Source: Pseudomonadota bacterium (GTDB lineage Bacteria; Pseudomonadota; Gammaproteobacteria; Acidiferrobacterales; UBA6901). Taken from it: a stretch of 41,044 nucleotides of DNA. The position numbers and the translations under genes were made by a program. The notes under the pieces were generated by a model. That model saw only the letters and a list, made by a program, of their open reading frames with translations, did not search any database and had not been told where the DNA came from. Below are positions 29,534 through 35,928 of this stretch, in pieces (the first letter of the stretch is position 1; each line of letters opens with the position of its first letter). Where the stretch lies: NCBI GenBank assembly GCA_027364845.1, contig DAHXOO010000022.1, positions 1 to 41,044 on the forward strand, read 5' to 3'.

Positions 29534-30430
29534 TCAGTGCGGCATCGTAACCATAGTCGCGGAGCGCGCGAATATCCACGCGATTCCGAAGCCGGCCATG
29601 ACTGAATTGCGGGTGCGCACCAGCGGGCTGCTTTCGAATACCGCACCAGAAAGGTTGCCGTAGCGCACGAACGCCCCGAACCAGGTGTTACGAAAGCGCC
29701 TGCTGACCGAAATCGTCAATCGCATTCCGCTGTAGCCGCCGGACGTAACATAGGCCGGGCGAGTCGGCGTGGCATAGGCCGGGTCTACTTGATAGTAGTA
29801 AGCATTCTGCTGCTCGGTTGCGAATACAGGACCGAGCGCTGCCCCAAAATTCCAGCGCGCCACACCGAGACGTAGTTTCGTGTCATAGTTGATGATCGGA
29901 TTGAACACCCAACCAATATAGTGCGCATACCGCAGGTCGGTTGCGATCACAGCGCGCGCCGGCAACTTGAATGACCAGGTCGGTTCGCGCCGGCACACTG
30001 GATCGAGACAGACTTCGAGTGCCGGCCCGACTTCCACAGTTGGATAAAGATCCGGCATTCCGGCGCGGGCATCGTTGCGGCTGCTATTTACCGGAACTCC
30101 GGCGTTCAGGCTGAAGTTAAGATTAATGCGCCGATGTCTCACGACTTGTCCCACTACGCCGTGACGACCCACGGTCACGGCATCTCCGCGATACACCAGG
30201 TACGGCAGCGGCAGGAGATAACTGCGCTGTTGGTCCGACCCGTTGTAGTCCGGAACCGTGAGCGGCGCCACACCAAAGCCGATTTCCCACAGCGGGCGCT
30301 GCGCGGCGCTGGCCGATGCTACCAGTCCAGACAGCAGTACGGCAGCCAGCCTTCGCCATCGGCGCACGCGATACCGGACCGTACGCCTCACCGGCGGCCG
30401 CAACTCATTTTCTGCTTTCGGAGCGACCAC
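29534..30430 (-). CDS. MipA/OmpV-family outer-membrane protein
   Basis: A 298-residue exported protein. After a basic N-terminus and a hydrophobic leader (about 28-43, LAAVLLSGLVASASAAQ) comes a beta-barrel with alternating patterns and the MipA opening WEIGFGVAPLTVPDYNGSDQ. It ends in strands with aromatic residues (MAGFGIAWIF) before a short tail. The family scaffolds murein-lytic enzymes (MipA) or acts as a porin-like protein (OmpV). The start is GTG at 30430 with AGGA 6 bases upstream; a later GTG would shorten the basic N-terminus. It probably stands alone. Confidence 0.85.
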   Translation of the reverse strand: MVAPKAENELRPPVRRTVRYRVRRWRRLAAVLLSGLVASASAAQRPLWEIGFGVAPLTVPDYNGSDQQRSYLLPLPYLVYRGDAVTVGRHGVVGQVVRHRRINLNFSLNAGVPVNSSRNDARAGMPDLYPTVEVGPALEVCLDPVCRREPTWSFKLPARAVIATDLRYAHYIGWVFNPIINYDTKLRLGVARWNFGAALGPVFATEQQNAYYYQVDPAYATPTRPAYVTSGGYSGMRLTISVSRRFRNTWFGAFVRYGNLSGAVFESSPLVRTRNSVMAGFGIAWIFARSATMVTMPH

Positions 30431-30770: not shown

Positions 30771-31895
30771 TTGCCACCGACTCATGTCCATACGACTAAG
30801 ACCTTGGCGACGCGGTGGCAACGCCGTGCTTACCTCTTGAGCGCGATTGCCAAACCCCGTGGCGCCGTTACGCGCCAGCACAAGACCGTCCGCCGCTGGG
30901 CTGACTGGCCGGAGGAACGCCTGCTCGATACCCGCCTTTGCGACCTTGACCTGAAGCTTGCGCGCAGCCCGCTGGAAGAACGGATTGCCACGCTGTACCG
31001 CGAGCTCGATCTTCGTGGCATCGGTTTCCGGCCCCACTGCTGGCTGTCGGACTGCTGGTTCAGTCCGGACGGCGTGCCGGGTTTCGCCATTCCGTTCTAT
31101 CTCGCGCATCCGCGCCTGGCACGACTGGAGAAACGCTGGATGCTTGAACTAGAGGGAGGAAGCAGACCGGAATGCCTGAAGCTCATGCGCCACGAAACAG
31201 CGCATGCGCTGGCCAACGCATACCGCCTGCATCTGAGGCGTGAGTGGCGGCGGCGCTTCGGACGCGCTAGCCGCAGTTACCCTGACAGCTATCTGCCGCG
31301 CCCCTATAGCCGAAGTTACGTCATTCATCTTGAAGGCTGGTACGCGCAGAGCCATCCACACGAGGACTGGGCCGAGACGTTCGCCGTGTGGCTGGACCCG
31401 CGCTCAAACTGGCGCGAGCGCTACGGCGGCTGGCCGGCGATCAGGAAGCTCAGATACGTCGACACCTTGATGCAGGAAATAGGACCACGGCGCCCCGCAC
31501 TGCACAACCGGCGCCGGATCGAACCGGTGAGCGCCCTGCGTGTAACGCTGCGCCAATATTTTGAGCAGAAACAGGAGCGGCTTGGTGCCTTCTACCCGCG
31601 CTTCCACCGCCAGCAGCTTGAACTTATCTTCCCGCCCACGAGGTCACAGCGCGCCGAACCGGCCTCGCACTTCATACGGCGGCACCGGCGCGATGCGCTA
31701 GCCGCGGTCTCGCTCTGGACCGCAGCATCGCGCTACCGGGTAAACCTAACACTCGATCACATGGCGCAGCTCGCTGATGAGCTGGATCTGCGCACAGGCG
31801 CGGATAGAGAGAGCGCACGGCTGGCACTGATTTCGGCACTGATCATGCTCTACATGGGTTCGCTGCATGCGGGAAAGTCGCGCCTCACGCTATGA
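30771..31895 (+). CDS. putative zinc metallopeptidase
   Basis: A 374-residue soluble protein with the zinc-peptidase motif H141-ETA-H145 in LMRHETAHALANAYRLH and a downstream acidic motif HEDWAETFAVWL (Glu202 a likely third ligand). This fits the family of putative zinc-binding metallopeptidases whose second motif is (E)DWAE. The rest is rich in Arg and Leu with a C-terminal helical part (about 300-374). The substrate is unknown. The only early start is TTG 30771, with AAGGA close upstream. Its stop overlaps the ATP-grasp start (ATGA), so the two are coupled, implying a shared pathway, for example peptide release or tag processing. Confidence 0.75.
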   Translation: MPPTHVHTTKTLATRWQRRAYLLSAIAKPRGAVTRQHKTVRRWADWPEERLLDTRLCDLDLKLARSPLEERIATLYRELDLRGIGFRPHCWLSDCWFSPDGVPGFAIPFYLAHPRLARLEKRWMLELEGGSRPECLKLMRHETAHALANAYRLHLRREWRRRFGRASRSYPDSYLPRPYSRSYVIHLEGWYAQSHPHEDWAETFAVWLDPRSNWRERYGGWPAIRKLRYVDTLMQEIGPRRPALHNRRRIEPVSALRVTLRQYFEQKQERLGAFYPRFHRQQLELIFPPTRSQRAEPASHFIRRHRRDALAAVSLWTAASRYRVNLTLDHMAQLADELDLRTGADRESARLALISALIMLYMGSLHAGKSRLTL

Positions 31896-32920
31896 AGAAA
31901 TTCCGTGTAATGATGCTGGTCCATTACTCGCTGGTGCCTCCGGATGATCTGCACTCCAAGGACGATCCGCGCATGGAGAAATTTCGCACCGAGTACGACG
32001 TCAAACACGCTCTGCTGAAGCTCGGTCACGAAGTCTGCGTGGTCGGTGTCTACGATGATCTGGCGCCAATACGCACGACCATAGAACAATGGGAACCGGA
32101 CATCGCGTTCAATCTACTCGAGGAATTCGCCGGCATAGCGGCGTTCGATTACTATGTGGTGAGCTATCTCGAGATGATGAAGCTTCCGTATACCGGCTGC
32201 AATCCGCGTGGCCTGCTGTTGGCACGCGACAAGGCACTGTCCAAGAAACTGCTTGCCTACCACCGCATCCAGGTTCCGGACTTTCGCGTGTTCCCGCGTG
32301 GTCGAAAATCACCGCCCAGGCGTCGCGTCCCCTACCCGGTGATTGTCAAGGCGCTCACCGAGGAAGGTTCACTTGGCATCGCGCAGGCATCCTATGTGGA
32401 AAACGAGCGCCAGTTGCAGGAGCGCATCCAGCTCATTCATGAACGCATCCAGGACGACGCCATCGCCGAGCAATACATTGATGGCCGCGAGATCTACGTC
32501 ACGATTCTGGGCAACATCCAACTGCAGGTGCTGCCGGTGCGTGAGCTGATCTTCCGCAACGCGATCGAAGGCGCTCCGCGCATGGCCACCTACAAGGTTA
32601 AATGGGATGAAAAGTACCGGGAACGCTGGGGGATCGACTATCAATTCGCCGCTGACCTAGAGGTGGAGACGGTCGAACGCATCGGCCGGCTGTGTAAGCG
32701 AATATACCGCGCCCTCGGGATGAGCGGCTACGCACGCATAGACCTGCGCCTCAATCCTGCGGGGCAGTTTTTCGTGCTCGAGGCCAATCCCAATCCCGGG
32801 ATCGCCCGAGATGAAGACAGCACGCTGTCCGCGCGCCGGGCCGGAATGAGCTACGAGGAATTTATCCAGCACATCCTGCGGCTCGGCCTGCGCGCACACG
32901 CCAGCGCCAGAATACAGTAA
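31892..32920 (+). CDS. ATP-grasp ligase, D-Ala-D-Ala ligase-like
   Basis: A 342-residue ATP-grasp enzyme that would join a carboxylate to an amine through an acyl phosphate. The N-terminal pre-ATP domain (1-110) includes NLLEEFAG. The ATP-binding part has VIVKALTEEGSLGIA (about 150-164), IAEQYIDGREIYV (191-203), and Mg-binding ARIDLRL (Asp284) and FVLEANPNPGI (Glu297, Asn299). It is too divergent and too short of the D-Ala-D-Ala ligase signatures to be called Ddl. It is coupled to the metallopeptidase and followed after 15 bases by a thioesterase. A peptide-bond or amide-forming role is expected; the product is unknown. Confidence 0.88.
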   Translation: MKKFRVMMLVHYSLVPPDDLHSKDDPRMEKFRTEYDVKHALLKLGHEVCVVGVYDDLAPIRTTIEQWEPDIAFNLLEEFAGIAAFDYYVVSYLEMMKLPYTGCNPRGLLLARDKALSKKLLAYHRIQVPDFRVFPRGRKSPPRRRVPYPVIVKALTEEGSLGIAQASYVENERQLQERIQLIHERIQDDAIAEQYIDGREIYVTILGNIQLQVLPVRELIFRNAIEGAPRMATYKVKWDEKYRERWGIDYQFAADLEVETVERIGRLCKRIYRALGMSGYARIDLRLNPAGQFFVLEANPNPGIARDEDSTLSARRAGMSYEEFIQHILRLGLRAHASARIQ

Positions 32921-32935
32921 CCAGGATATTAACTC

Positions 32936-33346
32936 ATGAGCGAAGACAGTCTTCCGACCGATCGCCACGCTACCCTGCGGGTCGTGCCCATGCCATCCGA
33001 CACGAATTCCGCCGGGGACATCTTCGGCGGCTGGATCATGGCACAAGCCGACATCGCCGGCAGCGTGGTGGCAAGCCGGCGTGCACGCGGCCGCATCGTG
33101 ACCGTCGCGGTGAATGCCTTCCAGTTCCGCAAACCAGTATTCGTGAACGACCTAGTGAGCTTCTACGCCGAGGTGGTTCGGGTCGGTCGCACCTCAATTA
33201 CCGTGGACGTCGTGGTCTTTGCCGAGCGCGCACGGCACAAAGGAGAATGGGCTGGGGAATGCGTCAAGGTGACGGAAGCCACGCTGACCTATGTTGCGAT
33301 CGATGACCAACGCCGGCCGCGCGAGGTGCCGCCGGAGCATAATTAA
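32936..33346 (+). CDS. acyl-CoA thioesterase, YciA-like hotdog fold
   Basis: A 136-residue single hotdog domain with the family hallmark SDTNSAGDIFGGWIMAQADIAGSVVA and the strand FQFRKPVFVNDLVSFYAEVVRVGRTSI. The family hydrolyses acyl-CoA thioesters in the cytoplasm as hexamers. AGGA lies 9 bases before the ATG, and the gene begins 15 bases after the ATP-grasp stop, so it is co-transcribed with it. The length is normal. Confidence 0.93.
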   Translation: MSEDSLPTDRHATLRVVPMPSDTNSAGDIFGGWIMAQADIAGSVVASRRARGRIVTVAVNAFQFRKPVFVNDLVSFYAEVVRVGRTSITVDVVVFAERARHKGEWAGECVKVTEATLTYVAIDDQRRPREVPPEHN

Positions 33347-33471
33347 GCGGCACTTCCGCCGCCCGCGCGGGTCGGCCGCGAGTACGCCCACCGATGGTAC
33401 GACTTGATAACGGGTCCATTGTTCCCCATTTACCTCAAAGACAACTTGCCGCTAGCGAGGTGGCTTTTATC

Positions 33472-34281
33472 ATGACCCGGAACCGTCCTGCAGCCGTGAA
33501 TGGCAGCTTCTACCCCGGGGGACGAGTCGCGTTGACGTCTATGGTGGATTTTTTGCTGTCAGAGGCGGCCACATCCGCAAACGGCGGACTTTTTCCCAAA
33601 GCGATCATCGTGCCACATGCTGGCTACGTGTACTCTGGCGCGGTGGCCGCGCGCGCCTACGCACGCCTACGGGGATACTCAGCTGACATCAAGCGTGTGA
33701 TTCTGATAGGACCGACACACCGTGTACCAGTGCGCGGTCTGGCGCTACCTGGAGCGGAGCGCTTCACGACGCCCCTCGGTACCGTCGACGTGGACCAGGA
33801 CGCCGTGTCTGCAATCTCGCACCTACCGCAAGTGGTCATGAGTGATCTGGTCCATGCGCGCGAACATTCCCTCGAGGTGCAAATTCCGTTCCTGCAGCGA
33901 GTACTGAAAGAGTTCCAGATCCTTCCTCTCGCCGTCGGCGACGCAACCCCGTCCCAGGTCTCCGAAGTGATCGAGATCCTGTGGGGTGGAGCGGAAACAC
34001 TGATCGTGATCAGTTCCGACCTTTCCCACTATCTGCCTTATGAAGTGGCGCAGGAGACGGACAGCCGTACGGTTGAGGCGATCCTTGCGCTCGACGATGA
34101 CCTAATCAGCGACGCCGATGCCTGCGGTAGTACGCCGGTCAGAGGTCTGATCCTGGCGGCCCGGGCACACCGGCTGCATCCGCAGTTGCTCGATCTGCGT
34201 AATTCTGGAGATACGGCAGGCGGCCGCGACAAGGTGGTCGGTTACGCGGCTTTGGTTTTCGGAGAACAAACCCATGTCTGA
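33472..34281 (+). CDS. amrB: AmmeMemoRadiSam system protein B (MEMO1-like)
   Basis: A 269-residue MEMO1-family protein. The start MTRNRPAAVNGSFYPGG matches the family; the ATG at 33472 has AGGTGG 8 bases upstream. An ATG at 33394 would add 26 poorly conserved residues. Metal-ligand positions are visible: His49 (VPHAGYVYSG), His83 (PTHRVP), Asp183 and His186 (SSDLSHY) and Cys218. Human MEMO1 binds iron or copper through similar residues. In bacteria the protein is paired with an AMMECR1-like protein and a radical SAM enzyme. Its function is not established. Its 3' end overlaps the next gene by 8 bases. Confidence 0.93.
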   Translation: MTRNRPAAVNGSFYPGGRVALTSMVDFLLSEAATSANGGLFPKAIIVPHAGYVYSGAVAARAYARLRGYSADIKRVILIGPTHRVPVRGLALPGAERFTTPLGTVDVDQDAVSAISHLPQVVMSDLVHAREHSLEVQIPFLQRVLKEFQILPLAVGDATPSQVSEVIEILWGGAETLIVISSDLSHYLPYEVAQETDSRTVEAILALDDDLISDADACGSTPVRGLILAARAHRLHPQLLDLRNSGDTAGGRDKVVGYAALVFGEQTHV

Positions 34282-34849
34282 CACGCTCGGCACAACACTG
34301 CTGATACTCGCGCGCAATGCAATCGCTGCCGCCCTGAATGAAGCCTGCTTGGCATACCAGGACGCGCCGCGCCTGTCGAAGCCCGGAGCCTCGTTCGTGA
34401 CGCTCACGCGCAACGGCGAATTGCGCGGCTGCATCGGCAGCCTGGAAGCTAAGTGCCCGTTGCGTGCCGATATTGAAGCCAACGCCACAGCAGCGGCGTT
34501 CCGCGATCCCCGGTTTGCGCCGCTCACGCGGCGGGAATATCCGGACACGGCGATCGAGATATCGCTGCTTTCGCCGACCGAGCCTCTGGCTGTAACCGAC
34601 GAACAGCACGCCTGGACGACGTTGCGCCCGGGTGTGGACGGGGTGGTGCTTGAGTTCGGCGGGAACCGCAGCACCTTCCTGCCGCAAGTGTGGGAGCAGC
34701 TGCCGGAGCCGGCCCAGTTTCTTGCCCACCTGAAACGCAAAGCCGGTCTGCCCGCGGATTTCTGGCACGACTCACTGCGGCTTTCGCGCTACACAGTGCA
34801 GAAATGGACCGAGGCTCATACGCTTCCCGCCGCGGAACAGACCTTATGA
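34274..34849 (+). CDS. amrA: AmmeMemoRadiSam system protein A (AMMECR1-like)
   Basis: A 191-residue AMMECR1-domain protein with the invariant LRGCIGS at 50-56 and the conserved segments ATAAAFRDPRFAPLT and TVQKWTEA near the end. AMMECR1 is a human disease-linked protein of unknown activity; the bacterial partner set suggests modification chemistry with the radical SAM enzyme. The start overlaps amrB by 8 bases and has GGAG 9 bases upstream. Its stop overlaps the radical SAM start as ATGA. Confidence 0.93.
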   Translation: MSDTLGTTLLILARNAIAAALNEACLAYQDAPRLSKPGASFVTLTRNGELRGCIGSLEAKCPLRADIEANATAAAFRDPRFAPLTRREYPDTAIEISLLSPTEPLAVTDEQHAWTTLRPGVDGVVLEFGGNRSTFLPQVWEQLPEPAQFLAHLKRKAGLPADFWHDSLRLSRYTVQKWTEAHTLPAAEQTL

Positions 34850-35928
34850 GTTCGGCCGCCTACCCCGCCCGCTACTGGCACCCGCTCGAGGACGGCCGCA
34901 TCCAGTGCGACCTGTGCCCACGCGACTGCCGGCTGCACGATGGCCAGCGTGGTGCATGCTTCGTGCGCCAGCGCACGGGCAACCAGATGGTGCTCACCAC
35001 CTATGGACGTTCGTCAGGGTTCTGCATCGATCCCATCGAGAAAAAACCGTTGAATCACTTTTTTCCGGGATCCAGCGTCTTGTCCTTCGGCACCGCGGGC
35101 TGCAACCTCGCCTGCAAGTTCTGCCAGAACTGGGACATCAGCAAATCACGCGATTTTGACCGCCTTGCCGATCAGGCCTCTGCCGAGGAAATCGCCATCG
35201 CCGCACAGCAGGCCGGTTGCGAAAGCGTTGCTTTTACGTATAACGATCCGGTTATATTCGCCGAGTACGCCATGGACGTGGCGGATGCCTGCCACGCCCG
35301 TGATATCCGCACTGTGGCAGTGACCGCCGGCTACATGCATCCCGAACCGCGGCGCGATTTCTATGCCAAGATGGACGCGGCTAATGTCGACCTCAAGGCA
35401 TTCAGCGAGGAATTTTACTTCAAGCTCACTGGTGCACACCTGCAGCCGGTGCTTGATACGCTGTGTTACCTGCGGCACGAAACCGACGTTTGGCTGGAGA
35501 TCACGACACTCCTGATCCCGGGAAAAAATGACTCGGACGAGGAACTTGCGGCACTGAGCAGATGGATCGTCGACACGCTCGGTCCGGAAGTGCCGCTGCA
35601 CTTCAGCGCCTTTCATCCGGACTACAAGATGAAGGATGTTCCGCCGACCCCGCCGCGCACGCTGCGGCGCGCCCGCGACATCGCCTTGCGCGCCGGGGTG
35701 CGCTATGTCTACACCGGAAACGTGCATGACCTGGCAGGCGGTACTACCTATTGCCCCGGCTGCCGCATACCGCTCATTGAGCGCGATTGGTACGACATCA
35801 TCGACTACCGGCTTGACCCTGCCGGGCACTGTCCGGCCTGCGGCACGGTGATCGCGGGACGCTTTCGGCAGTTCAGCCGGCAGTTCGGCAACCGCCGTAT
35901 CCCCGTGGCAATCCGTCACGGCGGTTAG
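34846..35928 (+). CDS. amrS: AmmeMemoRadiSam system radical SAM enzyme
   Basis: A 360-residue radical SAM protein. The iron-sulfur motif CX3CX2C is Cys86, Cys90 and Cys93 (TAGCNLACKFCQNWD). An N-terminal cysteine set (C21, C24, C28, C38) and a C-terminal pair of CPxC motifs (C303, C306 and C329, C332) may hold extra clusters or a zinc ribbon. Relatives include PflA-type activating enzymes (GNVHD, YTYND-like stretches). The ATG at 34846 overlaps the previous stop, so the triad is translated as a unit. Substrate and reaction are unknown. The alpha/beta hydrolase gene follows after 22 bases. Confidence 0.94.
   Translation: MSSAAYPARYWHPLEDGRIQCDLCPRDCRLHDGQRGACFVRQRTGNQMVLTTYGRSSGFCIDPIEKKPLNHFFPGSSVLSFGTAGCNLACKFCQNWDISKSRDFDRLADQASAEEIAIAAQQAGCESVAFTYNDPVIFAEYAMDVADACHARDIRTVAVTAGYMHPEPRRDFYAKMDAANVDLKAFSEEFYFKLTGAHLQPVLDTLCYLRHETDVWLEITTLLIPGKNDSDEELAALSRWIVDTLGPEVPLHFSAFHPDYKMKDVPPTPPRTLRRARDIALRAGVRYVYTGNVHDLAGGTTYCPGCRIPLIERDWYDIIDYRLDPAGHCPACGTVIAGRFRQFSRQFGNRRIPVAIRHGG

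Follow-up and report, generated by a model that had tools for sequence, protein, structure and literature searches.

A linked Ddl-fold ATP-grasp ligase and divergent Peptidase_Mx metallopeptidase as a candidate two-gene module

A Ddl-fold ATP-grasp ligase and a divergent zinc metallopeptidase are encoded by overlapping genes in a 41,044-nucleotide stretch of gammaproteobacterial DNA (contig DAHXOO010000022.1), referred to here in its full length as the window. The two appear to form a self-contained amide-ligase/metallopeptidase module, a reading to which we assign a probability of roughly 0.55. The best reading of their joint function is that the couple acts in the cytosol on a single small substrate that is probably cationic and does not belong to peptidoglycan.

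Arrangement and inheritance of the gene pair

The initial annotation proposed a translationally coupled pair whose stop and start codons overlap as ATGA, with HETAH and EDWAE motifs in one protein and a Glu-Ala-Asn-Pro-Asn motif in the other. The overlap is present (Table 1), and a 4-base overlap of peptidase and ligase ORFs recurs, by their coordinates, at many homologous loci in both phyla. Both sets of motifs were located: HETAH occupies residues 134-138 and HPHEDWAE residues 188-195 of the peptidase (A2 numbering), with the conserved Glu of YAQSHPHEDWAE about 52 residues past HETAH, and EANPN, which reads EANPNPG, spans residues 297-301 of the ligase. The sole correction concerns the peptidase start, which is uncertain; TTG 30837 is likelier than TTG 30771, because L003 and L006 have ATG and GTG, respectively, at the matching place, and L003 has CTG where the window has TTG 30771. 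Judged from the coding sequences, selection acts on both genes, with dN/dS values against four near relatives of about 0.06-0.09 for the ligase and about 0.15-0.3 for the peptidase.

Table 1. Features of the window and of related loci
Feature	Locus	Position	Strand	Remark
MipA-family gene	Window	29534-30430	-	Upstream, divergent from the pair
Zn metallopeptidase ORF	Window	30771-31895	+	Divergent Peptidase_Mx (PF15887) without N-terminal zinc ribbon; probably cytosolic
ATGA stop/start overlap	Window	31892-31895	+	Putative translational coupling, from sequence
Ligase ORF	Window	31892-32920	+	Ddl-fold ATP-grasp carboxylate-amine ligase, acceptor site altered
YciA-like thioesterase, then AmmeMemoRadiSam B, A and radical SAM	Window	32936-35928	+	Directly downstream of the pair
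Separated ligase and peptidase of G343, about 18 kb apart, with an M28 peptidase gene after each	L102	8754-10628
As above	L103	7706-9175
Small protein upstream of distant peptidase	L127	7745-8101
Same	L128	5772-6146
Same	L129	5658-5999
Same	L131	7793-8149
Same	L133	1572-1976
Tandem Ddl-like ATP-grasps with KamA-like radical SAM	L097	6799-12557		GNAT fused to HDAC-like domain
Same	L145	3990-7702
Same	L146	4768-8505		Same cluster as L097 and L145
Diaminobutyrate (DABA) aminotransferase, SbnA, ornithine cyclodeaminase-like, Ddl-like ATP-grasp and KamA genes	L148	2557-8038		Thioflavicoccus plasmid

The suggestion that this ligase comes with its own peptidase is supported by near-universal linkage, and peptidase homologues elsewhere, on whose linkage the proposal had been made to depend, do adjoin ligase genes. 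In the gammaproteobacterial sample the ligase (E <= 1e-136) occurs in 10 of 185 genomes, with the peptidase present in 10/10 and adjacent in 10/10; an eleventh peptidase stops at a contig edge. Across 247 genomes of Acidobacteriota, 33 of the 38 ligase copies adjoin a peptidase, and at genome level 34 carry both genes against 2 and 2 with a single one (Fisher p 5.5e-37, kinship ignored). Among 359 Pseudomonadota genomes, either gene is found only in the window's own genome and in six of a single other genus, both genes being present and adjacent in 7/7. The exceptions are as follows: ligase and peptidase lie 5-19 kb apart in G206, G326 and G343, L017 has them on different contigs with the peptidase at a contig end, and no peptidase was found in the ligase carriers L010, G317 and G269, where some assemblies may be incomplete. 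As a side observation, the M28 genes that follow each of the separated genes in G343 belong to the same cluster, and the arrangement is repeated in G326.

Gene order bears on a supply route, in which the peptidase would free an amino acid or peptide for the ligase in linear salvage or biosynthesis. The peptidase gene comes first in 32 of the 33 adjacent acidobacterial pairs, and neither pair protein, read by eye, has an obvious secretion signal, both of which fit such a route. The remaining acidobacterial pair (G367) is, however, convergent; the partners of more distant peptidases are likewise more distant ligases, and six of those pairs are convergent too. Because of these seven, gene order is not essential, and a supply route seems to us quite improbable.

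The trees of the two pair proteins are broadly congruent, with weak support at several inner forks. Each tree places the gammaproteobacterial G017 and G140 among Acidobacteriota, has G311 and G377 as its outermost pair, and groups the second copy of G299 with that of G383. Because joint cross-phylum placements, outermost pairs and extra copies match between the trees, the pair can be regarded as one unit that has been inherited and duplicated together, and probably also transferred. Adjacency through operon inertia, with no shared function, could draw on the fact that some flanks are also conserved in near relatives; yet adjacency persists across phyla despite different flanks, and paired duplication and joint placement across phyla speak against it as well, so that this explanation is already contradicted and the most improbable that we weighed.

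The flanks themselves vary. The pair heads a co-directional run of a YciA-like thioesterase and three AmmeMemoRadiSam genes, an arrangement that accompanies the pair in near relatives (L003-L006) but not elsewhere, and no third gene is a recurrent neighbour of the pair at homologous loci. That the pair lacks peptidoglycan-synthesis partners, as first noted, was borne out: the MipA-like gene upstream is common only to near relatives (L003-L008, L010, L088). The small acceptor protein gene for which a search near homologous pairs had been advised did not emerge; no conserved small ORF (18-90 residues) was found within 1.2 kb of them, a span in which very short genes, and beyond which distant ones, could be missed. 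The same span yielded no conserved candidate for the short precursor peptide gene expected of a graspetide/RiPP system. Separately, at L127, L128, L129, L131 and L133 a distant peptidase without an adjacent ligase has a conserved small protein (~113-134 aa) just upstream, with a signal-peptide-like start and, in the one scanned, no Pfam match. A defence or phage origin was rejected: there was no PADLOC or PHROG match, and the two DNA patterns scanned gave no viral relatives. No plasmid copies of the peptidase were found, and plasmid relatives of the ligase reach only <= ~37% identity.

A Ddl-fold ligase with changed acceptor-site residues

By sequence, the ligase belongs to the Ddl-fold superfamily and has an intact ATP/Mg core. 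It matches PF07478 at 104.7 bits (cut-off 24), and its predicted model (pLDDT 85) aligns with DdlA 8evv at Z 32.8 over 299 residues in VIA-align. The equivalents of K215, R255, D257 and N272 are kept in 49/49 aligned pair ligases, and that of E270 is E or D.

Despite the shared fold and core residues, orthology to Ddl (TIGR01205, EC 6.3.2.4), which had been named in advance as evidence against the proposal, was rejected on four grounds. On the TIGR01205 profile, the window ligase scores 116.1-116.4 bits against a curated cut-off of 245.65, and it falls far under every Ddl and Van NCBIfam cut-off among those listed. A separate true Ddl above the TIGR01205 cut-off is present in 18 of 18 carrier genomes tested, where scores of about 108-131 bits were obtained for the pair ligases listed; the window genome's own Ddl, on another contig, carries the classical AERDVSIASG and NTSPGMTATSLLP motifs. 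A tree of 76 sequences places all 49 pair ligases in a single clade with support 100/100 and the 11 Ddls in another.

The fourth ground is the acceptor site. In E. coli DdlB, Ser281-Leu282 lies close to the carboxylate group of the second D-Ala and binds it. Numbered after this enzyme and read from an alignment, position S281 is E/D in 47/49 pair ligases and S in 11/11 Ddls, L282 is D/E in 49/49 and L in 11/11, and Y216 is W in 47/49 and Y in 11/11; the window ligase has E308/D309 and W238 at these places. According to PMC7691350, Ddls whose sole product is D-Ala-D-Ala conserve both Tyr216 and Ser150. Because the core residues are kept while S281-L282 has turned acidic, we infer an enzyme that still works but whose acceptor site has changed and probably binds cations; the substitution of an acidic pair for Ser-Leu suggests a cationic or diamino acceptor rather than a D-amino acid. 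A further candidate, ligase E34 as the counterpart of DdlB E15, was dropped when the wider alignment gave it no support.

Position Y216 also weighs against a VanA/VanX-like system, in which an altered Ddl and a zinc dipeptidase would change or edit peptidoglycan precursors. The likeness lies in a Ddl-like ligase beside a zinc peptidase, together with the divergent MipA (MltA-interacting) gene upstream. The MipA neighbour, though, is not found outside near relatives, the ligase stays far below all Van cut-offs listed, the peptidase matches PF15887 only and not the M15 family of VanX, no VanH adjoins the pair, and position Y216 is W, not H, in 47 of the 49 pair ligases. With no Van-level ligase score, M15 peptidase or VanH around the pair, such a role is very unlikely.

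Outside the pair clade, the closest relatives found for the ligase offer an indirect clue to chemistry. On rhizobial and Thioflavicoccus plasmids they lie alongside DABA aminotransferase, SbnA, ornithine cyclodeaminase-like and KamA genes, forming DABA/Dap-linked ATP-grasps; others are tandem Ddl-like ATP-grasps with KamA-like, GNAT and HDAC-like genes. Because related ligases adjoin diamino-acid and KamA genes, the branch may work on amine-rich small molecules. Unlike the pair ligases, these enzymes have other acceptor-site residues and, in the examples read, no adjacent peptidase. In their own right, the tandem ATP-grasp/KamA-like clusters, which include GNAT, look like a beta-amino-acid peptide pathway, and the L148 cluster is possibly an uncharacterised diamino-acid peptide pathway.

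The peptidase and the proposed reactions

The window peptidase matches PF15887 at 29.7 bits (gathering cut-off 27) and no other family, and 13 of 13 of its homologues match PF15887 as well. In hhalign, the profile of pair peptidases matches that of canonical Peptidase_Mx with 96.7% probability (E 4.3e-10), the alignment being confined to the catalytic core. In all 66 of 66 peptidase homologues HExxH is followed 52-57 residues further by YxxxHPxEDxAE, and canonical Peptidase_Mx shares this motif order with a spacing of 54-57. By contrast, the window peptidase has neither the N-terminal zinc ribbon (C6/C19/C22 ...) of canonical members nor their C-terminal LNRSMG-YPFV region; its C-terminal part is different and its partner is a Ddl-type ligase. 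The spacing of seven residues from Tyr to Glu resembles that of known clan-MA gluzincins. Foldseek returned no structural neighbours of the peptidase at E <= 0.001; VIA-align gave weak matches, mostly to zinc peptidases with a best Z of 6.7, and PPEP-3, ACE/ACE2-type and M48-type enzymes score below that value, too weakly for assignment. An apparent peptidase fusion in L106 (a 1588-aa ORF) was set aside, as only the peptidase domain was matched and the sequence looks like a chance open frame.

In the preferred scheme of a self-contained module, we infer what class of substrate is used, that both enzymes act on one molecule and which way the peptidase step runs, as follows. The ligase would use ATP/Mg to activate a carboxylate to an acyl phosphate, and an amine, probably that of a cationic compound, would then attack it; E308-D309 in the acceptor pocket may select a cationic or diamino acceptor over a D-amino acid. 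The peptidase, a putative cytosolic gluzincin-like enzyme of the HExxH...E type, would serve the same pathway and most likely hydrolyses or matures the ligase product, presumably a short peptide-like metabolite.

Relation to known ligase-peptidase systems

Canonical Peptidase_Mx keeps different company. It occurs in 24 of the 185 gammaproteobacterial genomes, and Alpha-E accompanies it in 24/24, against 54/185 overall (Fisher p 1.6e-15); 16 of its 25 copies are located no more than 3 kb from Alpha-E. For the operon of Alpha-E, ATP-grasp, transglutaminase and Anbu, peptide synthesis or tagging has been proposed (Iyer et al. 2009, as relayed in PMC5666114 and PMC6376114). The genome of the window (G000) has no Alpha-E, with PF04168 unmatched at E 1e-10, and no strong canonical Peptidase_Mx match.

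This company matters for reversible protein tagging, in which the ligase would put an amino acid or small peptide on an acceptor protein and the peptidase would take it off. Tubulin tyrosine ligase/carboxypeptidase and Pup ligase/depupylase are models for such add-and-remove tagging. Strict ligase-peptidase pairing agrees with it, as does the co-occurrence of canonical Peptidase_Mx with an ATP-grasp system itself proposed to tag. Against it, no acceptor gene is conserved near the pair, although a housekeeping protein encoded at another site might serve as acceptor, the closest annotated surroundings of related ligases are diamino-acid clusters for small molecules, and to our knowledge the Ddl-fold ligases on record act on free small molecules. 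The original idea of a tag that is made and removed is thus a possible conjecture, and tagging proper looks rather unlikely. Similarly doubtful is an undescribed reversible conjugation, arisen independently of Alpha-E/Anbu and spread between phyla as a two-gene unit, in which a small group would be put on a cellular acceptor by the Ddl-derived ligase and taken off again by the Peptidase_Mx enzyme.

The Alpha-E systems and the module proposed here are alike in that an ATP-grasp ligase is encoded with a hydrolase and that Peptidase_Mx, in its canonical form, stands alongside Alpha-E; they differ in that the pair consists of two genes only, has a Ddl-type ligase and lacks Alpha-E in the window genome. 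Because the canonical form accompanies the Alpha-E/ATP-grasp system so regularly, Peptidase_Mx looks to have in the pair a second, differently built ATP-grasp partnership, and the pair would thus be a reduced, independent counterpart of these systems. No published description of the pair was found in a search that did not extend to Iyer et al. 2009, where an earlier mention is possible. A separate function, conserved in Acidobacteriota and in several lineages of Pseudomonadota, is hidden because ligases of this family are easily annotated as D-alanine--D-alanine ligase. Pairing an ATP-grasp ligase with a dedicated peptidase is in itself known; the two-gene composition and the acceptor-site signature appear new, and a version without transglutaminase, Alpha-E and Anbu is a far simpler object for finding the substrate of Peptidase_Mx.
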